A stretch of 64,000 bases of DNA, taken from Closterium sp. NIES-65 (lineage: Eukaryota; Streptophyta; Zygnematophyceae; Desmidiales; Closteriaceae). Shown here piece after piece: positions 7,209-44,155 of the stretch; the stretch's first letter is position 1, and each line of letters begins with the position of its first letter. A program made the position numbers and the translations under genes. Under the pieces are notes generated by a model. It had not been told where the DNA came from and did not search any database. It worked only from the letters and a program-made list of their open reading frames with translations. The stretch is from contig CANXME010002151.1 of the NCBI GenBank assembly GCA_948144175.1, forward strand, positions 186,001 through 250,000, in the 5' to 3' direction.

Positions 7209-7420
7209 CTCAGAATCTTAAGCAAAGGTAGGCTTAGAAGCCATAACTTAGGTGCCTAGGTGCTCGAGTTCGAGGGTGAGGAGGAAGGTATCGAGAGATT
7301 TTTGAAAGAGAAGGAGAGGTTTCACTAGGAAGAGTTGGGATACAAGTACAATGCCCTAAATTGGGTTGTACTCATTACAGAGTACCCCACTGCAGGCTAG
7401 ACAGCAAATATATTCTGACA
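7208..7420 (-). repeat. 5' LTR of N1 (213 bp)
   Basis: It is nearly identical to 4930-5142 (one visible change, CTAGGTGC for CTAGATGC). The primer site lies immediately left at 7196-7207 and target copy ACAGT is at 7421-7425. Confidence 0.9.
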
Positions 7421-7839
7421 ACAGTATGGAAGTTCAACACAGTATACGCAGCAGATGGAGAGCCTCTTCAACCGAATTACCGGCCTGACCGAAGGAGAAA
7501 AAATCCAAGCGTATACTGAGGGGCTAAAAATGGAAGTCCGCATACAGGTGATAGTCGCGAACTACAGCAACTACCGCAACATGGTGTGTGCAGCAGAGAG
7601 ATTCGATGTGTTGACACGAGTTCAACCCGAAAACACGACGATACGTGCCGAACAGATTATTCGGCACGGAGCAATCGGCACCAGCCACGACCGCCGACCC
7701 GATGGATATGGACAAGATCGACGCGACGCAGCAGCCGACAAAATATGAGAAGTGCGAATTTTGCGGCGCAGCAAGACATCGATTGTTTTGCGTGTTGGAA
7801 AATAAAGAAGGCACGAGCAGAGCTGCAGGGTAATAACAG

Positions 7840-8482
7840 TGTAGTGCCCCTGAAGTTAAAAAACGGGAATCGCGAGTAGCCGCGGATCGACCTAGCGATC
7901 ACGAAAATATCCGGAAAAGGCGGCGACGTGGCGACTTCGGAGCGGGAGCCTAAGGAGATCATGATGGCGCGAATTTAAAACGTCACAACTGGCCGGCAAT
8001 AGAGGAAATCGCCAAGACAAATGGAGGCTCCGCGAAACAAGACTCTGCACCGACCAGAAAACTCCAGCCGAACACCCACAAAAGTAAAGATTCGTTGAAG
8101 TTATCCTAGAAAGGTGTTTTAACTAAGAATTTCACTTCTCATAGTTTTCAAGCCTTTGAGAAATTCAGGGGAGATTTGGAGGATAAGAAAAATCTGCTAG
8201 AGAATATTTAGGTACCTGAGAAGTTGGGCAAGCAACTCCAGAGCGTGAAAAGGGTCGTGCGTTTCGATGAGTAAATATTCTCTCCCCGCAGCATAGTGTT
8301 AAGGCTCCCCATTGCCCACAGGTGAAGCCTACACAGCTGTGAAGGCTTAGGGGAAGGTTCCAGGCCAAGACGGAGCTGAATCGGCCTCAGATAAACCTTT
8401 CTAATCCTGCTGAGTTGGAAACTGATATTGAGTCAGCAGATTCGAGTGCAGGACCTAGGGATGATCGATTCGACGTACCTAC
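7840..8482 (+). other. Gyp-1 gag-protease spacer, decayed
   Basis: The stretch lies between the gag knuckle and the solo LTR. No long open frame or recognisable domain was seen. It probably holds the decayed C-terminal gag and upstream protease region. CCTAC at 8478-8482 is the left target copy of the following LTR. Confidence 0.55.
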
Positions 8483-9575
8483 TGTTGGTGTAAGGGCCTA
8501 ATAAACTCAAGCTATTAAGACTTTATCAAACTTAAAACCTCTCCTCGGGGTCACCTCCAAGGGTCCTTAGGTGACTGGTACAAGACCAGCCCCTATCCTT
8601 GGGTCCGAGTTTGTAGAAAGAGGGATCAAGAGGGACATAGTCAAAACAGCAAGAGTACCTTGAACGTCGCGCAGCGTATCGTGCAGACCGTCGATCGGAT
8701 TAAGCTGACAATTTCCTATATCAAAGCTCACACTAAGAGCTTTAAAATAAGCCAAGTTGCCTCGCGAAAAGTTCTGCCATAATGAAGTTATGGCTCGGAC
8801 ATCGTTAGCCTAGCGTTGGAGTGCTAGTGTACTAGCGTTGACTCGGGTAGCATTCCGCCGTCGCACCGCGTAGAAAGGAAATTCCAGCAAGGAAGGAATT
8901 CGCTTGAATCAATTTCACTATATCCAGGTACAAACAGAGAAAGAATAAATAGTTCTAGCTAGCAAGGACCTTGGGAATAAACCTGGGAACAACCAAGGAT
9001 GATCCCAAATAATTCCAAGCAACAGAACCAACCTGGCTGGACAAAATAGCAGGTGGTAGGTTGGTGAACAACCTCTGGTTCTGTTCTTCCAACCTGGGAA
9101 AACAACAACCAGGTTCAGGTCCTAAAAACAGAACCTGTTTTGTCTTTGCCCAACCAGCCAAATGCTGGTTCCGCTGGTTTCCCCTGGCCCTGTAGCATGC
9201 AGATACAGACAAACAACATCCAACCTTCACCTAAATTGTACCCCTATAGTGCCTGCCCTGCTACACTATAGTCAACCAAACAAAACAGTACAGTTTCGAG
9301 TTGGATAGAACTGAATCTGCGCAATCAAGTAAGCTGAACCGCAAAGCTTCCATCTTGGGTTCCTTTGCAAGCTCGTCCTTTCTGCTTGTACTGTTCGTAG
9401 CGCGTACAATGTTATGCCGAAGCGCACAATGCGCGAGTACCTGCAAATGCTTCAAGCGAAAGTTGCGAAAGCAAACAAACACACGAACATTCCATTCATA
9501 CCCAAATGCATTCGTACACGCATACTCGTACAAACAGACGGCAGGATGTCGTGCAATGTGAATTTGCACCCAACA
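8483..9575 (-). repeat. Solo LTR of copia family L (1093 bp)
   Basis: It runs from TGTTGGTGTAAGG to TGCACCCAACA and is the reverse complement of the LTRs at 19058-20150 and 24808-25900, with the same length. The 5-bp target duplication CCTAC is exact (8478-8482, 9576-9580). No internal sequence is present, so it is the product of LTR-LTR recombination after insertion into Gyp-1. Confidence 0.93.
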
Positions 9576-9580
9576 CCTAC

Positions 9581-10006
9581 GATCCTATAAGCGAGACCGT
9601 CTACGGTTATTCGGAGCGGCAACAACTACAGCTACTCCAGATGATCTGCAATGGGTGACGCCTCCAGGCACTGGTGGACAGTGGTGCGTCCCACTCGGTG
9701 TGTGATCGCGGGACGTTGGAGAAAATTGGAGAACCCTCGGAAGAGACAAAATTCATGGCAACGATAGTGGACGGTACAAAACTTCCCATCCACGGTGAAG
9801 CATCACTGCAGCTGGACATAGGGGCGCTAAGGTGGAAGCCGACGTTGCCGATCACAAACATCAAGGGATTAGATCTTATATTGGGGCTAGATTTCTTTAA
9901 GCGGTTCAACCCGGAGATCGACTGGATCAATCAGAAGGCGTGCATTCTACAACAATGGGAAACGAGTGGAGCTGCGAAGCTGGATGTATACATGGGAGGT
10001 TCTTGA
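9581..10006 (+). pseudogene. Gyp-1 aspartic protease
   Basis: The retropepsin active site DSGASHSV is intact near 9675 and the second conserved block LILGLDFFKRFNPEIDW near 9885-9935 is present. The domain would process the Gag-Pol polyprotein. The frame closes at 10006 while RT continues in another frame (9966 on), so a frameshift separates them. Confidence 0.85.
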
Positions 10007-11470
10007 AACGACACTGGCACGGTTCGAACGGACGATGAACGAGAGTAACAAGGGTCACTTAGCACTGGTCATGGCAGCAGCAGAGGAGGAGAAGTCGAAC
10101 GCAGAACTTCCTACACCAGTGAATGAGATGTTGGAGCAGTACAAAGATATAATACCCGACGACCTACCCGCAAGCGTACCTCAAGCGCGCACCCACAAGC
10201 ACGAGATCATGGAGGAACCAGGCGCAAAACCCGTCTCACGTGCACCATACCGCCTTAGTCCGACCAAACTGACAGACATGAAGAAGCGGATAGAGTATCT
10301 ACTGGACAGACAACTGATCCGCCCATCTACCTCTCCCAAAGGTGCACCAGTTATCTTCACTCGTAAACCAGACGACACATTACTGACGTGCATTGACTAC
10401 CGCGCACTGAACAAACACACTGTAAAAAACAAATACCCCATACCGCGCATAGACGACCTTTTGGATCAACTGTGTGGTGCAACGGTCTTTTCGAAGCTGG
10501 ACCTTCGGTCCGGTTACTGGCAGATCAAGATGGTAGACGACTTGACCCACAAGACGGTGTTCCGTACCATATACGGCCCTTACGAATACTTGGTGATGCC
10601 GTTCGGACTCTGCAATGCACTAGCAACGTTCCAGGCGGGAATGAGTCATACAATATGGCCCATGTTGGATGAATGCATGGTGTTGTACCTGGACGACATC
10701 CTGATCTACTCCAAAAATATGAAAAAGCATGTAAAGCATTTGCGGAGGCGTTCGAGATCCTGCGGAAAAACATGTTTTATGTGAAACTGTTGAAGAGCGT
10801 CTTCGCCATGAAGAAGGGGCAATTTCTCAGGCACATGGTGAGTGCGGAGGGCTTATACGTGGACCCGCGGAAGATTGAAGCCGTTAACAAATGGAAAATT
10901 CCGGAGAACGTGAAGGAGTTGCAGCAGTTCCTAGGCTTCGCCAACTACTACAACAGGTTCGTGCCGCAGTGCGCTGAGATAGCAGCGCCACTGACCGACC
11001 TACTGAAAGAGCATACGCCCTACAAATGGGATACTCCTCATCACCAAGCCATGGAGCAGCTACAGACAGCACTGACTATAGTGCTAGTACTTATCATACC
11101 AGACCCTGACAAGGACTACATGGTGGAAGCAGATGCTAGTGACCAGACAATTGGAGCAGTACTGATGCAGAATCACGGACGCGGTTTGCAACCCATCGCC
11201 TACCTCCGTAAGAAGTTACGCGGAGCAGAACTGAACCACCCCATCCATGATGAGGAAGCTTTTCCAGTAGTCATTGCCTTAAAGGCGTGGAGGTGTTACC
11301 TAGAGAGAGCTAAGACTACAGTCTATATCAACAGCTGCAGTCTGAAATACATGAAGTCGTAGCCGACGCTCTCACAACAACATGTGCGGTGGGTGGATGT
11401 CCTGGAAATTCACTTCCACTACGACATCGTCTTCAAGTCCGGGCTACACAACAAAGCAGACGCGTTGAGC
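10007..11470 (+). pseudogene. Gyp-1 reverse transcriptase and RNase H
   Basis: The RT starts after a linker with IIPDDLPASVPQARTHKHEI and contains CIDYRALNKHTVKNKYPIPR and FSKLDLRSGYWQI. The catalytic YLDDILIYS lies near 10686. A frameshift near 10730 moves the reading to the frame that ends at 11362. That frame carries the connection domain (FLGFANYYNRFVPQ) and RNase H (VEADASDQTIGAVLMQ). The final RNase H part (VRWVDVLEIHFHYDI) follows past a stop near 11362. It is a typical chromoviral RT-RH, inactivated. Confidence 0.87.
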
Positions 11471-11599
11471 TGCACCGTTTATGTAGCAGGCATCCAGCTC
11501 AACCAGATGAACCCTCTGCTAAACCAACATTGGTACCTGTGGACGCAGAGATTGCTACGGCAGAGAAACGGGAGCTATTACAGTGGGAGAAGGACTTAG

Positions 11600-12929
11600 C
11601 TGTAAGGAAGGGCCCAGGAACTATGGGTACCGAACTATGCCCCGCTACGGAAGATCCTACTTGAGGAGTTTCACGACGTACCATACGTGGGACATTACGG
11701 GAGCAAAACAACGCTAGCAGAGATAGCAAAGAATTACTACTATCCCAGGATGGCAGCAGACATGCGGCAGTTCGTCACCTCGTGCGACACGTGCCAGCGG
11801 ATGAAGATTAGCAAACAGGAAAAAGCAGGGTTACTTCAGCCTCTACCCGTACCGGAGCAGCCATGAAAGGTCGTGAGCCTCGAATTCATCACGGGACTTC
11901 ATTCGACCCTCACGAGGGCATGGCGCTTTACTCGTAGTGATCGATAAGCTTTCTAAAATGGGTCACTTCATCCCGACTAACGCCACAGCTACAGCTGAAG
12001 CATACTTCTCGCCTCTTCTTTGACCGCATCATCACCATCCACGGCATCCGTGCTACAAAAATCTCAAACAGACCCAAAACTCACCAGTAGGTTATAGAGG
12101 GAACTCATGAATTTGTTGGGGACAAAGCTTACAATGTCTTCAGCATACCACCACCAACCTCACGGACAGACTCAACGAATCAATAAGGTGGTTGAACAGT
12201 GACTACGTACCGCTTGCAAAGGCGATGCCAGCTACAGGGATTCACAGTTACTGACACTTGGGTTCGCTTACAACAACGCTTCACATGCAACGAGAGGGGA
12301 AAATATTTTTTCTTGTGTTACGGATGGAAACCACTTACACCACAGCAGCCAACCACACTGGCACACGTCCAAGCCGAACATGACTTCGTCAATACCATGC
12401 AGCAGCTATAGGAGAAGACCCAGCGACGCCTCACCATTACGCAGACCTCCCAGAAGTAGCATGCTGATCGCCAGCGACGTGATCATTCAGTAGCAGTCGA
12501 AGATTAGGTGCTTCTTGACACACGCAAATTGAACCTGTCTCATCTAACATCCAAGCTCCGGCCACCAGTAACATTGAGGCATAGGTGACACCAGTAACAT
12601 TCCGCTTGCGCTTACTTACTACGTGGAAGCTTCACAATGCTTTCCATGTTCAACAACTAAAGCCGTACAAGGACCTCAACCAATGGTTTTAGGGACCGCA
12701 GCTACCGCCACCAGCACCTGTTCTCATACAGAATGGACCGGAGTACGAAGTGGAGCGCGTTCTCACTCATCGACGCCGTGGCGGCAAGACCCTCGAATTC
12801 CTGATAAGCTGGAAGGGATACAACCCCACTGAAGACAGTTGGGTTGCAGAAGCTGATATGGGCAACGCATGCCGTACTCTCAAGGACTTACTTGTCAAGT
12901 GCGAAGATAACTATATCAACGGGAGCTAG
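11600..12929 (+). pseudogene. Gyp-1 integrase and C-terminal chromodomain
   Basis: The HHCC zinc finger (VGHYGSKTTLAEIA, then SCDTCQRMK) is at about 11685-11810. A stop near 11863 follows. The core is badly decayed (VVIDKLSKMGHFIPTN survives near 11935). From 12738 an open frame encodes a chromodomain: YEVERVLTHRRR, FLISWKGYNPTEDSWV, ending at a TAG at 12927-12929. Chromodomains at the integrase C-terminus define chromoviruses and target integration to marked chromatin. The integrase itself cannot be active here. Confidence 0.85.
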
Positions 12930-12962: not shown

Positions 12963-15313
12963 TGCGTTTGTTCTTTAGTCATTTTCTAGCACTTGCGCAT
13001 TGACAGGGCAAAACCGTAAGAGTTTTGTTGGGTGCAAATTCACATTGCACGACATCATGCCGTCTGTTTGTACGAGTATGCGTGTGCGAATGCATTTGGG
13101 TATGAATGTAATGTTCGTGTGTTTGTTTGCTTTCCCAATTTTCGCTTGAAGCATTTGCAGGTACTCGCGCATTGTGTGCTTCGGCATAACGTTGTACGCG
13201 CTTTGAACAGTACAAGCAGGAAGGATGAGTTTGCAAAGGAACCCAAGATGGAAGCTTTGCGGTTCGGCTTACTTGATTGCGCAGATTCAGTTCTATCCTA
13301 CTCGAAATTGTACTGTTTTGTTTGGTTGACTATAGTGTAGCAGGGCAGGCACTATAGGGGTACAATTTAGGTGAAGGTTGGATGCATGCTACAGGGCCAG
13401 GGGAAACCAGCGGAACCAGCATTTGGCTGGTTGGGCAAAGACAAAACAGGTTCTGTTTTTAGGACCTGAACCTGGTTGTTGTTTTCCCAGGTTGGAAAAA
13501 CAGAACCAGAGGTTGTTTACCAACCTACCACCTGCTGTTTTGTCCAGCCAGGTTGGTTCTGCTGCTTGGAATTATTTGGGATCATCCCTGGTTGTTCCCA
13601 TGTTGATTCCCAAGGTCCTTGCTATCTAGAACTATATATTCCTTCTCTGTTTGTACCTGAACATAGTCAATTTGATTCAAGCGAATTCCTTCCTTGCTGG
13701 AATTTCCTTTCTACGCGGTGCGACGGCGGAATGCTACCCGAGTCAACGCTATTACGCTAGCACTCCAACGCTAGGCAAACGCTGTCCGAGCCATAACTTC
13801 GTAATGGCAGAACTTTTCGCAAGGCAACTTGGTTCATTTTAAAGTTCTTGGAGCGAGCTTCGATATAGGAAATTCTCAGCTTAATCCGATCGACGGTCTG
13901 CATGATACGCTGTGCGACGTTCAAGGTACTCTTGCTGTTTTGACTTAGTCCCTCTTGATCCCTCTCTCTACAAACTCGGACCCGAGGATAGGGGCTGGTC
14001 TTGTACCAGGCACCCAAGGACCCTTGGAGGTGACCCCGAGGAGAGGTTTTAAGTTTGATAAAGTCTTAGTAGCTTGAGTTTATTAGGCCCTTACACCAAC
14101 AAGTTTCACTTGCAAAAGTTGAGAACAATGATTCAGAATAATAGGAACAACATTGGCATGCAAAACTACATCTGGTTTAGCAAAGTTGTTGGTCGACTTC
14201 TAGCGCAGCATGGTCGACAACGTGCCAGCATGACTTGGTCGACCGGGCTCCAGCAGAGCAAAGTCGCGGCTTGCCAATGTTGTAAGTCCATGGTGTGCCA
14301 ACACTGCAACAAGTCGGCTGCACAACGTTGCACCCGCATGAGAACAGTGCACCAGCTTCGCAAGTGCGTGCAGCTGTTTAGTGCGCCACTCCTCGTCACG
14401 AACACAGCGCAGACGCTTGGCAGACTCCATATCACCAACTGCGCCCACCAGCCACGTCGACCTCGGATACCACCCTCGAGATCGCCTCGCAGAATTCACC
14501 CCGGCAACCTTCGCACATCTAGCCCGGGTATCCGGGTCAAACGGGCAACCACGCCTGGTCGACCAGCACCACCATCACGTGCGCGTTGACCACCCAGGTC
14601 GACGACCACCTCTAGTCGGTCGCCGGCTGTACTAGCTCAGCATCCCCAACCTCGTCGTCCTGCTACTCGACGCCCAGCTGCTCGACGTCCTCAGCCTCCC
14701 CTGTCGAGGTCGACGTCAGCCCCTCCTCCATCGACCACCAGGTCAGGTCGACCACCCCAAAGTCGGTGCCCAGAAGTCAGCACCAGTGCAGTGGCCCCCG
14801 TGCAAGTCGACCACCTTGTCCACCGCTGCAGGTCAGCTGCACTCCCCCGTACACCCGACCACAAGGTCGGCTCCGCACAAGCGAGGACGGGGCCTAACAC
14901 AATTCCCGTTGATATCAAGGAGAGTGTATCTCACGCCACCCAGCTTTGAGAATGGGACATGTGAGAGTACGATGGCTTATGCTGGCTTTGCTAACTTCCC
15001 TGGACTTTATTATGCTACTACTAGATTAGGTTTTATTTATCATGCATAGATATGCTTGATTTCCTAGGTTAGGTGCATTCCTATATGTACAGCACCGAAC
15101 CAGGTTACGTGCACCAAATTTAAGCCTTTTCGGTTGCCATTGGATTGCTTTCTACCGACTTCGGGGAGGTTCTTTACGGGACGCTTCACGACCCTCAGAA
15201 CATTCGCGTAACACCTGGGTATCTGGCCTTGTGTTGAGACTATATAAGCCTTGTGCCGTACCCAGGTGGATCATTCAAGCTCTCTTTCCTCAGCTCGTTT
15301 CTAGATCCTCACA
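12963..15313 (+). repeat. 3' LTR of Gyp-1, interrupted by a solo LTR
   Basis: It follows a purine tract (GGGGTAGGAGGGA, about 12945-12957). The left boundary is tentative because the 5' copy is incomplete. A TATA-like TATATAAG is at 15241-15248, and the end TAGATCCTCACA at 15313 matches 3988. Without the 13026-14101 insert it is about 1.27 kb. The part 14190-14815 holds nine GTCGAC hexamers. Confidence 0.65.
13026..14101 (+). repeat. Solo LTR of copia family L (1076 bp)
   Basis: It begins TGTTGGGTGCAAATTC and ends TACACCAACA. It matches the L-family LTRs. The target duplication AGTTT is exact (13021-13025, 14102-14106). There is no primer site or internal region beside it. It inserted in the Gyp-1 3' LTR. 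Confidence 0.93.
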
Positions 15314-30616: not shown

Positions 30617-32629
30617 AGTAGGTCCAACCTGTCTATTAAACCAAAAAGCTAGTTGGTCCAACTAGTCTAGTAGACCAAAACGCCACGCGAGCCAATCAAT
30701 TGGACCAATAGGCAAGTTGGTCCAACCAGTCTACTGGACGAACAGGCTAGTTGGTGCAATCGGGACACTGTACCAACGAGCCAGTAGGTCCAACCAGTAT
30801 AATGGACAAACAAGACAGGTTGTTCAGCATGTCTATTGGAACAACGGGCGAGTTGGTCCAACTGGTCTTTTGGACCAGCAGGCCTGTTTGTTAAATGGAC
30901 AAATGGACCAACGTGTCCCAACAACCGCGTTCCGGTTAAACCATTTCATTGTACCAACTTGAATGTTCGTCCATCCGGTCTATTAGACCAACTCACCAGT
31001 TCGTCCAACCGGTCCATAGAACCAACGGGGTAGTTGGTCCAACCGGTCCATTGGACCAACGGGCTAGTTGGTCCAACCAGTCAGTTGGTCCAACAGGTTT
31101 ACATGACCATAAGCCAATTTGTCCAAAGTTGTTCCAACCGATCCGTTGAACAAAGAGGCTAGTTGTTTTAACATGTTCATTGGACCAACGGGCCTGTTGG
31201 TCCAACGGGCCCATTCGACCAACAAACCAGTAGGTCCAACCGGCCCATTGGACCAACAGAACGGTAGGTCCAACTAGGCTTTTGGAACAACTAACTAGTT
31301 GGTCCAAACGGTCCATTGGACCAACGGGCCAGTTGGTCCAACCGGTCCATTGGACCAAAATGCTCGTTGGCCCAACCTGTTTATTGGACTAGGCCAGTTA
31401 TTCCAACAGGTCCATTGGATCAACGAGCGAGTTGGTTCCATCGGTTCTGTGGACCAACAAGCTAGTTGGTCCAACCGGTCCAGTGGACCAATAGGCCAGT
31501 AGGTCCAACCGGTCCATTGGAGCAATACGCTAGTTGGTCTAACTAGTCAGTACACCAAAAGGCCAATTGTTCCAGCCTGTCTATTGGACCTTGGTCCAAC
31601 CGGTCCATTGGAGCAACGACTAATAGGTCCAACCAATCGATTGGACCAACGGACCAGTCGGTCCAACCAGCCCATTGGACCAATTGGGAAGTCGGTCCAA
31701 CTGGCCTATTAGACCAACGGGCTAGTTGGTCCAACCGGTCTAGTGGACCAATAAGCCAATTGGTCCACCAAAACTAGTTGATATATCATCAGTAGGTCCA
31801 ACCGGTCAAAGAGACCAAAACACTAGTTTCTCCAATCAGTCCAGTATACGAAATGGCGAGTTGGTCCAATCACAACATAACACCAACAGGCCAGTTGGTC
31901 CAAAGTTGGTCCAACCGATCCATTGAATCAAGAGGCCAGTTGTTTCAACCAGTCTATAGGACGAATAGGCCAGTTGGTCCAACCGGTCTATTGGACCGAA
32001 ACGCCTGTTGGTCCAACGGGTCCATAGGTCCAACGGGCTGTTTGGTCCAACCAGTCCATTGGACCAACGGGTCAGTTGGTCAAACCGGTCCATTAAACCA
32101 ACACGCTAGTTGGTCCAACCGGTCCATTGGACCAACGGGCCAGGTGGTCCAACCAATCGTGTAGACAAAAAGGCCAATTTGTTCAATTGGTCCAATGCAC
32201 CAACAGGCTAGATGGTTTTCGACCGTTCAGTTTACAAAGAGGCCAGTTTGTCCAGCCGTTCCACTGGACCAACGTGCCAGGTGATCCAACCGTTCCATTG
32301 ATCAACAAGCTAGTTGGTGCAATCGGTCCACTAAACCAACCGGCAAGTCAGTTTATCCGGCCAAATGGAGCAATGAGCTAGGTGGTCCAGCCGGTGAATT
32401 GGACCAGCGGGCCTGTTGGTTCAACCGGTCCACTGGACCAATAAGCCAGTTGGTCCACCCAGTCTAGTGGATTGATAGGTCAGTAGGTCCAACTGGTCTA
32501 TTAGACCAAAACGCTAGTTGTTCCAACCAGTTCAGTAGACGAAATGGCCAGTTGGTCCAAAGTTGGTCCAACCGATCCATTGAACCAAGAGGCCAGTTGT
32601 TTCAACCGGTCCATTGGACGACGGTGTGG
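30617..32629. repeat. 34-bp satellite block 2 (about 2 kb)
   Basis: It holds roughly 50-60 degenerate 34-bp units of the same type as 15955-16618. The best-preserved units are near 31290-31360. Frames such as MDRLDQLACWS arise only from the repeat. The right end runs into the 3' end of a minus-strand protein frame. Confidence 0.9.
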
Positions 32630-34434: not shown

Positions 34435-34442
34435 TACTGTAC

Positions 34443-34774
34443 TGTAAGGAAATTCCAGTTTCCTTACTTCGCGTCCCTACTCAACGCGTACATCACTGTA
34501 GCACCTCAGTCAGCACCGTTACCACTCGCGACCATGGCATCATTCATCATCCCGCCCTTTTCGCACATCGCATCCCGACCCCACGGCTCGGCTGGTAACC
34601 TGCGCTCCGGACCTACGCTTCGACACTTTCCCAACCTCAGTCCCAGGCTCGTCGCGCGACCATTACCGTTACCACTGTAGTTTCGCTATATAATGTTCGC
34701 TCATGCCTTCGCTCATTTGTATTCTTGCTTCGATAGTGCAATTCTCGTTCGTTCACTCAATTGCACTCGTAACA
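34443..34774 (+). repeat. 5' LTR of Gyp-3 (332 bp)
   Basis: It begins TGTAAGGAAATTCC and ends ACTCGTAACA. A TATATAA box at 34687-34693 is the likely promoter, placing transcription start some 25-35 nt downstream, near the R region. Confidence 0.94.
34687..34693 (+). promoter_or_regulatory. TATA box of the Gyp-3 5' LTR
   Basis: TATATAA lies in a G+C-rich LTR, 82 bp before the LTR end. The same box is at 39895-39901 in the 3' LTR. Confidence 0.65.
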
Positions 34775-34955: not shown

Positions 34956-36134
34956 ATGGCCGATTTCAATCTCGCCACGTTGACGCAGGAGCAACTCGAT
35001 CGTCTCGTGCGTCAATTGGAGGATTCGGCGCTCGAAATCACGACTCTGACGGCGGAACGTGACTCCGCCCGTCAACAGTCAACGGTGAACGTACCGACGA
35101 CATCACACGCACCAACCAATGCATCTGCACATTCGGAGGAGCCCATCGTCATCTCATCCGGCACACCAACGCAACACAACAGCACGGGACAGCGCTCAGG
35201 CGCAGCCAGTGACGGCGCAGCCCAACCGATGCCCGGCATGGGAGGGAACAGGAGCGCATTAAGCCCACGGGAGCCCCGAGAAGCCCGTCGGCACGTGGAG
35301 TTTGCGGCGACAAGTGGCGAGAACGCCATGATGGCCCCAATGCCACTCAAGCCGCAACGCCCGCCCTGCTTCGACCCAAGCCAACGCGGCGGCCCGACAG
35401 TTCAATCGTGGGTCTTCACGATGAATGTGTTTTTCGATGCCAACTACGTCGAGTCGGACGCCGCCAAGATCCGGTATGCGATTTCACTACTCAGGGGCCC
35501 CGCCATGGACTGGTGGCGAGTCATTGTGACGTCGCCGCGCGCCTACGAGCCACCGTCGCACGAGGAAGGGCCCTCGGGTCCAGCTGTTACCTGGAGTTCG
35601 TTCTGCGAAACCGCCCAATACAGCATGTGGGATGCGTGGTGCGTAGGGCTTCGGGCGCGCTTTGAGCCGATCGCGGCCTCGATTTCGGCGCGTCAGAAAC
35701 TGCGCACTTGGCGCCAGCTCGGGTCAGTTCAAGACTACACCAGCGGGTTTCTCGCACTTTGCGAACAGGTCGGCTACATGCACGAGGCGGAGCGGGTGGA
35801 CCGTTACGTCGGAGGGCTGAAGCCGGACATCTCGCACGAGATAATGCTACGCGGGCTCTCGAATTTCAACGAGATCCTCGCGCTCGCCGAGAAAATCGAT
35901 ATCCTACGCCGACCGAGACCGGGGTCCTATTACGGACATCGTCCTCGGGGACCGACCGAGCACGCCACTGTACATGCCGTCGCAGCGAATGCAGCTGCCG
36001 CGCCGTTTAGAGGGCGCTGTTTTGCTTGCAACCGGCCGGGCCATCGCAAGAGCGAATGTCCAGAGGAGCTGAGGCGTCGAGGAGCAGAGCAGGGGAAGGA
36101 GTCTCGGAGGCAGGGAAACGCCAGCAGTCAGTAG
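34956..36134 (+). CDS. Gyp-3 Gag
   Basis: The 392-residue Gag starts MADFNLATLTQEQLDRLVRQ in a good start context (GCCATGG). An upstream in-frame extension to 34890 is less likely. An N-terminal coiled-coil-like segment (residues 5-45) precedes a retrotransposon gag domain at about 130-310 (FDPSQRGGPTVQSWVFTMNV, RGPAMDWWRV, YVGGLKPDISHEI). The CX2CX4HX4C knuckle CFACNRPGHRKSEC is at 36018-36059. It forms the virus-like particle and binds RNA. It ends at TAG 36132-36134 inside a -1 frameshift signal, so most product is Gag alone and a fraction is expected to be Gag-Pol. Confidence 0.9.
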   Translation: MADFNLATLTQEQLDRLVRQLEDSALEITTLTAERDSARQQSTVNVPTTSHAPTNASAHSEEPIVISSGTPTQHNSTGQRSGAASDGAAQPMPGMGGNRSALSPREPREARRHVEFAATSGENAMMAPMPLKPQRPPCFDPSQRGGPTVQSWVFTMNVFFDANYVESDAAKIRYAISLLRGPAMDWWRVIVTSPRAYEPPSHEEGPSGPAVTWSSFCETAQYSMWDAWCVGLRARFEPIAASISARQKLRTWRQLGSVQDYTSGFLALCEQVGYMHEAERVDRYVGGLKPDISHEIMLRGLSNFNEILALAEKIDILRRPRPGSYYGHRPRGPTEHATVHAVAANAAAAPFRGRCFACNRPGHRKSECPEELRRRGAEQGKESRRQGNASSQ

Positions 36135-39100
36135 AAGTTGGGCCAACTACTGACGAGACTGCCTGCTCGCCCAACCACACCGACCCTCACCGAGTCACAG
36201 TACCGATTCACGCCATCGATCGGGCTCGGATGAATAAGGAGGGTACAGCGACGGATTGTCCGGTACTGATCTACGGGAAAATACAGGGAGCAGCAGTGAA
36301 GATCTTCATTGACGGAGGAGCAAGCCACAGCTTAGTTAATACCGCAACCGCACGAAAATTACAGTTAACGCTTAATCGATGTTTACCTGAGATAGATGCA
36401 CGCTTAGTCGACGGCACGCCCCTGGCCATACGGGAAAAGGTGGAGCGCGTAAAAGTCCGCTGCGGGGGGAACTTCGGGTTTACACAGGAAATGCTCGCGA
36501 CGACACTGGATGGGCACGACATTTTATTAGGACGTGATTGGCTGCGACGGTACAACCCACGGATCGACTGGACGACGGGGAGCTGCACAGTGCGAAGTAG
36601 TGGTAACTGGGTCGTTCTACCTCGCTGGCAGCCACCCAAATCTTCGACGGTCCAGGTCAACGCCATCACGATGAAACGGGCTGTCGCTGCTGGAGCTGAC
36701 GTGTACGCAGTGGATATCGCACTCGTAGAAAAAGATGAGCAGCCGAGTGATTTGGAGAAACTGCTGGCAACTGTACCGACCGAACTACAGGCACTACTGA
36801 AACAGTTCCCGGGGATATTTCCGGATGATTTACCACAGGGACTGCCACCTCAGCGGGCGCACGACCATAGGATCGAGTTAGAACCGGGGGCACAGCCAAC
36901 TGTACAGCGGCAATTTCGACTGACACAGCCCGAGCTCGACGAGTTAAGGAAGCAGTTAGATTACCTATTAGAGAAGCAGTTTATCCGACCGAGCTCGTCA
37001 CCGTTCGCCGCACCGATACTGTTCACACCGAAAAAAGACGGAGGGTTCCGCATGTGCATCGACTACCGAGCGCTTAACAGGGTAACAGTCAAATCGCGAT
37101 ACCCCATCCCCCGCGCCGACGAACTGATCGACCAACTGCGAACAGCACGAGTCTTTTCGAAAATAGATTTACAGGGAGGTTACCATCAGATTCGGGTCGA
37201 ACCATCGGACTGCGCCAAAACAGCATTTAGGACTAGGTACGGGTCATTCGAGTATACAGTAATGCCATTCGGGCTGACGAACGCGCCTGCGACATTTCAG
37301 ATGACCATGAACGAGGCATTTAGACCACTTTTAGATAAATGCGTGATAGTTTACCTGGACGATATTCTAGTTTACAGCCGGGATAAGCAGCAGCACTTAG
37401 TGGATCTTGAAGCAGTTTTTAAGGTTTTGGAGGAACATCGGCTACTCACCAAGGGCTCCAAGTGCGAGTTTTTTCGGGACAGGCTAGAGTTTTTGGGTCA
37501 CGTCATTTCGGAGGCTGGGGTTGAGATTGACCCAAAGAAGCTGGATACGGTAAAAGCGTGGCGCCCCCCGACGAACATTACGGAACTGCAGAGTTTTTTA
37601 GGTTTTGTTAATTACGTTCGACGGTTCGTGCCCGACATGGCACGTTTAACAGCCCCACTCACTGATTTACTGCGTAAGGGGGTCGCTTTTACGTGGGGGT
37701 AGAAAGAGCATGCTGCCTTCTCTGCCCTGAAAAACGTTCTCTGTTCACCACCCGTTCTACGCATCGCTGATCCCCACCGCCCTTTCGAAGTGGTTACCGA
37801 CGCAAGTGACATCGCCATCGGAGCTGTACTGTTACAGGACTTCGGCGACGGCCTCCAACCCATCGCCTACGAATCACGCAAACTACATCCGCCTGAGCGA
37901 AATTACCCGATACACGACCGCGAAATGCTCGCGATCGTGCACGCATTCAAAGTGTGGCGCTGCTACTTGACCGGCGCAGACGTGACAGTACGGACAGACC
38001 ATCGATCTCTACAGTACCTCCGCGCACAGCCCCACCTCAACCCACGACAGATTCGATGGCTCGATTTCCTCGAGTCGAATTTTCACTATACGGTCACATA
38101 CAAAAAAGGAGCCTCGAATATCGCCGACGCACTGACCCGCCCCACTGCCCAGATCCACGCGATACTACTCGCCCAGACCAGCCCGCTACTGACAGGCCTA
38201 TTTACCCACGGATATCAAACAGACCCGTTCTTTACAGGAGGCAACTCACAGCAATTCGCAGCGGCAAAAGGAGTCTATTACGTAAAAGCTGGAACCGACC
38301 GCATCTGGGTACCAGGATACACGCTACTGCGGGAACTACTGTTACAGGAGGCACACGACGGAGTTACCTCGGGACATTTCGGGGTAGAAAAAACACGGCA
38401 GCAGCTGCAGCGGTACTACTACTGGCCAGAAATGTTGACCGATGTGCAACGACACGTGGCATCGTGCCCCACTTGCCAGCTCATGAAGTCAAGCAGGAAG
38501 CGGCCGGCGGGACAATTACAACCCATCCCGCCCCCAGAGCGTGTTTGGCAGCAGGTGACGATGGATTTTGTCACGGGGTTACCAGCTGGGGCGAGTGGGA
38601 ATGACGCGATCCTGGTCGTCGTCGATCGACTAACGAAGATGGCTCATTTCGCAGCATGCAGGAAATCAATCACAGCCGAGGAAACCGCCCGACTCTTCAT
38701 CACCACCGTCGTTCGACTGCACGGGATACCCGCATCGATCATCAGCGACAGAGACACGAAATTTACAAGCAACTTCTGGCGGAACCTGTGGCAGCAGTTC
38801 GGCACGCGCTTACAGTTCAGTTCATCCTATCACCCCGAAACCGACGGACAGACGGAACGGACAAATCAGACCATGGAGCAGCTGATTCGAGCCACGTGCG
38901 ACGATCCGAATACGTGGGAACAGCAGCTGCCACTCATCGAGTTCGCATACAATAACGCACCATCAGCCACGACGCAACAGTCGCCGTTTTACTTGAATTA
39001 CGGACAGGACCCAACAGTACCCATGACACCGAATCCCGACAACCCCGTCCCACGAGCACAACAGTTCGCCGAGATTCTGCAAGCAGCACGGACCAGGGCA

Positions 39101-39622
39101 GCAGAAGCAATCAAAAAATCAAACATCATCGCTAAACGCAACGCCGATCGCCATCGCAGACCCGTTACTTATCAGCCCGACGACCTCGTTTTACTCGACA
39201 CTCAGAACCTCCGCCTGCCCATCACTCCAAAACTCCGCCCTCGATACTGTGGGCCATTTCGAATCAGTCACATGGTCACGCCAGTCACCGCGCACCTCCT
39301 CCTCCCTGCTGACTGGTACGTCAGCCCCTCGTTCCACGTCAGCTTACTTCGCCCTTACGTGCCATCCACCAGCCAACTCCCACGACATCGACCCAGCAGC
39401 ATGACACGACCACCAACCGAACCAGTCATCACCCCCGACAAGATCCTGAGCCACAGAGTTCGCGACCCTCAAGGAGCCCGAAAAGTGGAGTTTCTGATCC
39501 GCTGGAAAGATCGTACCCCCACCGAGGACAATTGGGTTCCCCTGGAGAAAGTTGAAAATCACCCCGTCGTCACCGACTACCTGCGTAGCCGCAATTTCCG
39601 AGACATCCACGCGCTTTCATAA
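36026..39622 (+). pseudogene. Gyp-3 Pol: protease, RT, RNase H, integrase, chromodomain (one nonsense codon)
   Basis: This is a single frame, -1 relative to gag, entered at about 36116. The protease site is IDGGASHSLV (Gly where Ser/Thr is usual), with ILLGRDWLRRYNPRIDW downstream. RT has CIDYRALNRVTVKSRYPIPR and catalytic VYLDDILVYS (Asp codons at 37358 and 37361). The only break is TAG at 37700-37702 (TWG*KEHAAF), between RT and RNase H. RNase H starts VTDASDIAIGAVLLQ. The integrase has SGHFGVEKT...SCPTCQ, then D (38564), D (38747), E (38855), spacing D-35-E. It ends in a chromodomain (KVEFLIRWKDRTPTEDNWVP). It copies the RNA and integrates the cDNA, probably into chromodomain-recognised chromatin. 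Confidence 0.9.
36113..36175 (+). promoter_or_regulatory. -1 ribosomal frameshift signal at the Gyp-3 gag-pol junction
   Basis: The heptamer G GGA AAC (36113-36119) is in the gag zero frame and fits X XXY YYZ. After a 7-nt spacer, stem 1 pairs GTCAGTAG (36127-36134) with CTACTGAC (36147-36154), 8 bp perfect. The loop segment GTTGGGC (36137-36143) pairs with GCCCAAC (36169-36175), 7 bp perfect, making an H-type pseudoknot with loops of 2, 3 and 14 nt. A -1 slip gives GGG AAA CGC and enters the pol frame. The gag stop lies in stem 1. Confidence 0.82.
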
Positions 39623-39650: not shown

Positions 39651-39982
39651 TGTAAGGAAATTCCCTTTTCCTTACTTCGCGTCCCTGCTCAACGCGTACA
39701 TCACTGTAGCACCTCAGTCAGCACCGTTACCACTCGCGACCATTGCATCATTCATCATCCCGCCCTTTTCGCACATCGCATCCCGACCCCACGGCTCGGC
39801 TGGTAACCCGCGCTCCGGACCTACGCTTCGACACTTTCCCAACCTCAGTCCCAGGCTCGTCGCGCGACCATTACCGTTACCACTGTAGTTTCGCTATATA
39901 ATGTTCGCTCATGCCTTCGCTCATTTGTATTCTTGCTTCGATAGTGCAATTCTCGTTCGTTCACTCAATTGCACTCGTAACA
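39651..39982 (+). repeat. 3' LTR of Gyp-3 (332 bp)
   Basis: It begins TGTAAGGAAATTCCC after the polypurine tract and ends ACTCGTAACA. It is followed by target copy TGTAC (39983-39987). Confidence 0.94.
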
Positions 39983-40300
39983 TGTACCCACCATTGATCT
40001 AACTTCTTGCTCGTTGCCAGAGGTCTCTGACCCACAGTTGACTTCCGTGACTGTATTTTGCCGAATCAAAGACCGCAAGTTACCAGCACGAATTTCCCTG
40101 GGCAGGAGATCTGATGCGAACGGAAGTGCTGGTAACCACAAGCCTCTGAAGCACAGGGTCTGCCCTGTCTCGTGCACGCTCGGACCAAGCGTGAAGTGCC
40201 CGTCACGGTTTGTGAAGAGCCATTGAGGAGGGTGTGGTTGCGAATACGTTAACGAATACGTGATTGCATCTCGAAGCCCCCGAGGCAGGCTTACAGTCAT
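39983..40300 (-). pseudogene. 5' part of a reading frame split by Gyp-3
   Basis: There are 106 codons from an ATG at 40300 (MTVSLPRGLRDAITYSLTYS) to the target site, then in-phase continuation at 34437 beyond Gyp-3. No domain is recognised. It lies divergently 312 bp upstream of the subtilase start. It may be a host gene, an exon, or an open frame by chance. Confidence 0.35.
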
Positions 40301-43074: not shown

Positions 43075-43708
43075 GGGGGAGAGTTGTGTGAGGGAGGCTC
43101 TTTCGTGGTAGGGGGGAAGATTTGAGCTCCCCATTTTATGTTATGACAGGGATATTGTTGTGGTGTGTTGTATGGCAGGGCATTGGCACATGGGATGGCA
43201 GGTCAAGTTGCATGGAACTTTGATATGGAAGGGTTTGGTTTGGTGTGTCTGACATGAGTGATTGTGTGTGAGCTGGCTGGATAGTATTTGGCAACTTCCT
43301 TGTTTGCATGCTATCTATTTGACACATACGGTATACTTTCGATCCAGCTGTACTAAAACAGAATACCAACACGGAGTTGTAGACTACCAAGGTAAATACA
43401 CAGACACTACCACTCAGCAAACCAAACACAATGGACTGGACCAAAGCTCCAAAAGAGAAGAGTCAAGGACAGACAACAATGCAACTGCAGGTTAACCCCA
43501 AGGCCCAGCTGCCACAGCAGCTCGCACTCCTTCCTGAAGCATCTTGCAGCACTGTCTATGATCGATCTCGCTACAGTGCTCACTCCAGACCCCAAACCCT
43601 CATATTCCTCACATGCCCCATGCATCAGCCAGCTGTCGCCGGTAATCGCCTGCTGATCGTCCCACCCAGCTGCCCCCATCGGCGCCCACCACCTGCTGCA
43701 ACGCTGCC
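43075..43708 (+). other. Subtilase 3' flank
   Basis: The stop is followed by GAGGGGGAGAGTTGTGTGAGGG and T/G-rich sequence typical of a 3' untranslated region. Short open frames on both strands have no recognisable features. Confidence 0.5.
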
Positions 43709-44155
43709 AGCACGTGCTGTTTCAGATGCCCGTCCACTGCCGGACCCTCTGCTCCGTACGGGAGAGATGACTCGTCCGTCATTATGTCCAGCAGCTGGGG
43801 AGGTCATGGGAAGGGAAGAATAGGGGAGTAAAGTGAGGGGGAAAGCCAGGCTGCTAGCACGTGGTGCTTCAGATGCCCATCCTCTGCCGGACCCTCTGCC
43901 CCGTAGGGCAGAGAGGACTCGTCTATCACTATGTCCAACAGCTGGGGGTGATGGGCGGGGAATAGGGCGGGGGGAGAAAAGGAGGGTGTAAGCACGTGGG
44001 GTGCTTCAGATGCCCATCCACTGCCGGGCCCTCTGCTCCATATGGCTTTTGAGACGTCTCAAAAGTCGTCTCCATATGGGAAAGATGACTCGTCCGTCAA
44101 TATGTCTAGCACCTGGGGGGTTGATGGGAGGGAAACGAATGTGGGGGGAAGGGAG
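43709..44155. repeat. Three ~135-165-bp imperfect tandem repeats with palindromes
   Basis: Units begin at about 43709, 43856 and 43991 (AGCACGTG..., CAGATGCCC, CTGCCGG, CCCTCTGC, GACTCGTC, TATGTC). Unit 2 contains the perfect hairpin CTCTGCCC/GGGCAGAG around CGTA. Unit 3 contains the 18-bp palindrome TTTTGAGACGTCTCAAAA at 44045-44062. No coding potential was seen. Confidence 0.8.

Follow-up and report, generated by a model that had tools for sequence, protein, structure and literature searches.

In a 64,000-nucleotide (nt) stretch of DNA (contig CANXME010002151.1, positions 186,001 to 250,000; the whole stretch is called the window below), we identified what is very probably a cassette for -1 programmed ribosomal frameshifting, placed where gag meets pol in a chromovirus, a chromodomain-bearing Ty3/Gypsy long terminal repeat (LTR) retrotransposon, from a Closterium-like alga. 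The parts of the cassette stand in the right phase and order, and its slippery heptamer, the gag stop and the frame offset are conserved across a young family of copies. Together, the anatomy of the junction and this conservation strongly support a frameshift reading, in which slippage, the pseudoknot fold and the ratio of Gag to Gag-Pol are all inferred from sequence. A pseudoknot is the likely stimulator, and this part is less secure than the frameshift itself because three of six relatives read through their peptides lose pairs of its second stem.

All features of the junction lie on the plus strand. The slippery heptamer GGGAAAC occupies positions 36113..36119, phased G GGA AAC in gag and 12 nt before the gag TAG, as an earlier reading of the sequence (the original prediction) had claimed; that reading placed the signal at 36111..36175, of which the end stands and the start lies two bases short of the heptamer. 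A 7-nt spacer (36120..36126) leads to the 5' arm of stem 1 (S1; 36127..36134), whose last three bases are the gag TAG (36132-36134). Following a 2-nt loop (L1), the 5' arm of stem 2 (S2; 36137..36143) is joined by 3 nt to the 3' arm of S1 (36147..36154), and a long loop of 14 nt separates this from the 3' arm of S2 (36169..36175). S1 has eight Watson-Crick pairs and S2 seven, both perfect, and together they could form an H-type pseudoknot. The spacer and the two perfect stems described earlier could all be located by coordinates.

The pol frame is -1 relative to gag and, again as predicted, open across the junction: it opens at 36011, overlaps gag for 124 nt (36011..36134) and next meets a stop at 37700. 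Under a generic rule for slippery heptamers (any X; Y = A or T; Z not G), the gag open reading frame (ORF) contains two, and only the G GGA AAC at 36113 is in phase. Readthrough of the gag stop codon was rejected: it would not lead into pol, whose frame differs, and the gag frame read past its TAG meets a stop at 36231. A stop in the third frame, at 36151, likewise ruled out a +1 shift.

This arrangement suggests how the two proteins would be made. A ribosome translating gag would stall at GGA AAC on meeting the pseudoknot beyond it, and the two tRNAs would slip back onto GGG AAA. Ribosomes that slipped would continue in the pol frame to make Gag-Pol, those that did not would terminate at the TAG 12 nt on to make Gag, and the outcome would be a little polymerase alongside much coat protein.

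The original prediction held that such parts would very rarely coincide by chance, and counts in the window and in simulated sequence agree. On the plus strand of the window, one of 86 generic heptamers has, 5-9 nt beyond it, a perfect pseudoknot with S1 of at least 8 and S2 of at least 7 pairs, and it is the site at 36113. By the same rule one of 92 qualifies on the minus strand, a TTTTTTT run. When the heptamer is ignored, each strand of the window has two positions at which pseudoknots of this size start. Sequence simulated from the element's dinucleotide steps yielded 90 of them in 49.7 million positions (1.8e-6 per position), or a chance of about 9e-6 over the five allowed spacings, a figure that leaves aside the further demand for the end of gag, an overlap and the right frame.

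To follow the junction through the family, we searched the element's own genome, which gave 1587 first-look candidate places; 40 were scored, all 99-100% identical, and 30 were examined, namely the window's own copy and 29 others picked by similarity to the junction region. All 30 retained GGGAAAC with the gag stop 12 nt beyond it, and in each the -1 pol frame ran open for 80 codons or more. Gag was open over its full length in 19, pol was open through the 560 codons covered in 11, and both were open, as far as covered, in 7. Where the original prediction had raised the prospect of relatives that carry a single frame for both genes, every copy showed the -1 layout. The frame offset is therefore not a private indel, since all 30 share it and some have both frames open.

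These copies are 99.0-100% alike over 301 nt, too similar for covariation in the stems to be seen. Few substitutions fall at the junction, and S2 has none in the 29 other copies, a sample biased by its choice on similarity; the low substitution density was not used as evidence because the copies had been selected by similarity to the same stretch. The TAG at 37700 is the first pol stop in none of the 29 other copies, 15 of which stop earlier, with later codons unread. Some first pol stops are shared, one codon by L004 and L011 and another by L008, L009 and L012. Defective copies may have multiplied, perhaps helped in trans.

More diverged relatives were read through 239 predicted proteins, among which 40 site-spanning Closterium proteins were picked by a motif in which Gly is followed by N, K, D, S, T or H; a protein with any other residue at that place would be missed. 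At the heptamer, 38 of the 40 have Gly-Asn, one Gly-Lys and one Gly-Asp. Thirty-one end six residues from that Gly, as the window's gag does; of the remaining nine, one ends a residue sooner and eight continue. By their tails, GNASSQ and GNAGSQ, the proteins form two Gag groups, and the near-full-length GNAGSQ members P0173 and P0175 are 54-55% identical to the window's Gag. Pol-frame proteins crossing the junction were found by downstream anchors (P0180, P0203, P0238 and P0240), and all four read Gly-Lys-Arg at the site; the pol-frame peptide of P0130 is cut just after the same residues. The heptamer in these relatives is read as GGGAAAC because the Gag and Pol residues jointly allow nothing else, a reading made across copies, with each relative seen in one frame. 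These peptides, together with the 30 copies, support the earlier proposal that -1 shifting would set the ratio of Gag to Gag-Pol.

Seven Closterium gene models (P0002, P0004, P0182, P0187, P0215, P0227 and P0232) run from gag into pol, with what we read as predicted joins, differing among the models, at or just after the heptamer. Such models are probably annotation artefacts arising from the frame offset.

To ask how far the stems persist, we back-translated six stem-spanning relatives, five in the pol frame (P0180, P0203, P0227, P0238 and P0240) and one past the gag stop (P0135); P0227 covers half of S1 only, and P0130, cut at the heptamer, and P0239, covering the far end only, were left out. 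No S1 pair was excluded in four of the six and no S2 pair in three, where "not excluded" is weaker than "paired". As a control, the 3' partner was slid by 1 to 3 places in the window and the six relatives (six slides each), which raised the number of forbidden pairs in 40 of 42 rows, P0227 being tied twice; this is a weak control, since the structure was taken from the window. Conservation in relatives, the check proposed originally, is therefore supported for the heptamer, by the copies and by both Gag and Pol peptides, and is mixed for the stems.

Estimates of folding energy are similarly divided. Nearest-neighbour stacks give -14.4 kcal/mol for S1 and -15.2 kcal/mol for S2, and when the sequence up to the spacer is omitted, as it would be under a ribosome, the most stable nested fold is S1, at -12.5 kcal/mol.

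Several observations weigh against the cassette as we describe it, and most of them concern the stems. For the 49-nt stretch, the stability of the nested fold is ordinary (z -0.72; matched by 51 of 200 shuffles), and with the spacer exposed an alternative nested fold of -19.3 kcal/mol would break both stems. In the back-translated relatives, S2 pairs are lost in P0180 (one), P0227 (one) and P0238 (two), and one S1 pair is lost in each of P0240 and P0227; these are gene models, possibly from decayed copies. Base changes in the 5' arm of S1 accompany the Gag tails GNASIQ and GNASSL, and L018, a young copy, has a substitution in S1. The scarcity of substitutions among the copies must also be discounted, given how they were chosen.

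The likeliest alternative retains a functional heptamer and takes the stimulator to be a stem 1 hairpin or some other fold, with stem 2 arising by chance or specific to the family. Such an arrangement would accommodate the S2 losses just described and the finding that, past the spacer, S1 by itself gives the nested fold of lowest energy. We consider it unlikely, given that a perfect 7-base-pair S2 would seldom arise at this position by chance, that S2 is unsubstituted in the 29 other copies, biased though that sample is, and that the geometry comes close to that of retroviral pseudoknots. Gag-Pol might instead be made from a spliced RNA, with an intron joining the frames at the junction as in Ogre elements, for which inter-ORF splicing is described in the part of a plant-wide survey available (PMC6317226). 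The seven gene models that run the Gag tail into Pol would fit such splicing, although their joins are predicted. These joined products vary from model to model, P0002 lacks the protease active-site stretch, and all are gene predictions; moreover, an intron would leave unexplained both the in-phase heptamer and the pseudoknot spaced 7 nt from it, and we therefore regard splicing as improbable.

Entry into pol by reinitiation or internal initiation, with no shift, could make use of the pol-frame ATG within the overlap, at 36056. However, this ATG lies upstream of the gag stop, initiation would need neither heptamer nor pseudoknot, and the heptamer is conserved in both frames, which makes this route very improbable. 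A further reading, that an indel, private or born of decay, created the -1 offset in a single-ORF element, would agree with the one ORF found in beet chromoviruses and Selaginella elements, as far as these are described in the available parts of PMC3605345 and PMC3350952. By contrast, the offset and the stop are common to all 30 copies, which refutes an indel for the young family; the end of Gag coincides in two groups that are about 54% alike, and the 124-nt open overlap persists. An origin by indel is thus extremely improbable.

A search of 36000-36300 for annotated RNA families, with E up to 10, returned two weak matches, which lay on the opposite strand, scored far under the gathering thresholds and were rejected. 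No relatives were found in two scans of the viral contigs, and one animal-type Gypsy contig among the genome contigs (L001) was not used.

We next compared the cassette with known recoding signals. The available portion of PMC5009743 counts G_GGA_AAC among the heptamers most prone to shifting on mammalian ribosomes. The betaretroviral GGGAAAC signals tabulated in PMC3835772 (SRV-1, MPMV, JSRV and SMRV) have a 7-nt spacer and 6-base-pair stems, with one S2 of 7; the SMRV row reads 7/6/7/1/14/0 and the other betaretroviruses 7/6/6/1/11-12/0, in a column order that we take to be spacer, S1, S2, L1, L2 and L3. The algal element thus shares with the betaretroviral gag-pro signals the GGGAAAC heptamer, the 7-nt spacer and an H-type pseudoknot. 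It differs in its 8-base-pair S1, its 2-nt L1 and its 3-nt junction between S2 and S1, which measures 0 in the betaretroviruses, as well as in its algal host and in having the protease in the ORF of the reverse transcriptase (RT). Because protease and RT share an ORF, one shift suffices in the algal element. By analogy, its signal would work like a betaretroviral gag-pro signal, in a host lineage for which we found no described case.

PEG10, a mammalian gene derived from a Ty3/Gypsy element, also has a GGGAAAC heptamer. It resembles the algal element in frameshifting with a pseudoknot stimulator (in the part of PMC5009743 available) and differs in being a domesticated gene that does not transpose. 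Among animal Ty3/Gypsy and other LTR elements, pol is commonly -1 to gag with a suitably placed heptamer in many: a 2003 survey, as cited in section 11 of PMC5009743, found a -1 pol in 28 of 51 animal retroelements. Unlike these, the present element bears a chromodomain and belongs to a streptophyte alga. For plants, the same survey as cited there gave a +1 pol in both types of split-frame element. Yeast Ty3 has the Ty3/Gypsy domain order and a frameshift near the end of gag, but it shifts +1 (PMC5009743, section 11, as available).

Plant chromoviruses (Tekay, Reina, CRM, Galadriel, Chlamyvir and Tcn1) share with the algal element, which was classed by its domains, a chromodomain after the integrase, the Ty3 domain order, a 5-base-pair target duplication and a stretch resembling a primer-binding site (PBS) after the 5' LTR. 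Beet chromovirus families and Selaginella elements differ in having a single gag-pol ORF, in the sections of PMC3605345 and PMC3350952 noted above. In the accessible part of the plant-wide survey (PMC6317226), most groups have one ORF and some have two, with frames unstated, and a described -1 case may be among them.

The element carrying the cassette shows the order protease, RT, RNase H and integrase, with LTRs and a target duplication. The 5' LTR (34443..34774) and the 3' LTR (39651..39982), both on the plus strand, begin with TG and end with CA and are 98.2% identical over 336 nt; the target-site duplicate TGTAC lies on each side, at 34438-34442 and 39983-39987. Just 3' of the 5' LTR is a PBS-like stretch, which presumably resembles the complement of the 3' end of initiator tRNA-Met. 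The gag ORF (34956..36134, plus strand) encodes 392 amino acids with Pfam matches to Retrotrans_gag and a CCHC zinc knuckle, and ends in GNASSQ*. On the same strand, the pol sequence read after the shift (36119..37699) encodes an aspartyl protease and RT; in the window's copy an in-frame TAG (37700..37702) splits pol between RT and RNase H, and the remainder (37703..39622) encodes RNase H, integrase and a chromodomain, all by Pfam. The chromodomain, C-terminal to the integrase, matches PF00385 at 29.2 bits against a cut-off of 25.1. By domain content, the sequence is thus that of a chromodomain-bearing Ty3/Gypsy LTR retrotransposon, a chromovirus.

Among the 120 Pol matches listed, the best 39 are proteins of Closterium strains and the remainder are mostly Closterium, with Tanacetum and Vitis proteins lower down; all 120 listed Gag matches are Closterium. 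The host is therefore Closterium or a near relative.

Elsewhere in the window, a second, decayed Ty3/Gypsy element occupies 7419-12845, with several frame changes and an RT stretch 51% identical to that of the main element; no readable gag-pol junction was found in it. Positions ~8955-9590 and 13020-13629 have nearly the same translations on opposite strands, suggesting that part of this element is surrounded by inverted repeats of about 600 bases. A long array with a 34-base period and palindrome-like units (AGTTGGTCCAACCGGTCCATTGGACCAAC...) lies at 30617-32573, its units ~60-80% alike to a reference copy, and diverged repeat copies spaced at about 150-170 bases lie at 43698-44155.

How new the cassette is depends on what has been described in plants. 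In the titles and abstracts searched, with most subscription papers outside the search, no -1 signal was described for an LTR element of the green lineage, and the available text of a green-alga paper with chromovirus pieces holds nothing on gag-pol frameshifting (PMC10675990). Against novelty, a 2025 review, in the part available, speaks broadly of ribosomal frameshifting as a strategy described for plants, animals and yeast, and names no -1 plant case there (PMC12786077). We regard it as an even chance that a retrovirus-type -1 cassette of GGGAAAC and an H-type pseudoknot is ancestral to, and maintained in, a high-copy zygnematophyte chromovirus clade, where Gag groups of about half identity would share it, and is the first of its kind known in the green lineage.

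A retrovirus-style -1 arrangement is unusual among elements of the plant lineage, where the described split-frame elements that we found shift +1 or splice. If our reading is correct, the green lineage has -1 recoding, here in an alga that stands near the land plants, zygnematophytes being their sister group. The element would also offer a natural test of how a plant-type ribosome responds to GGGAAAC followed by a pseudoknot.

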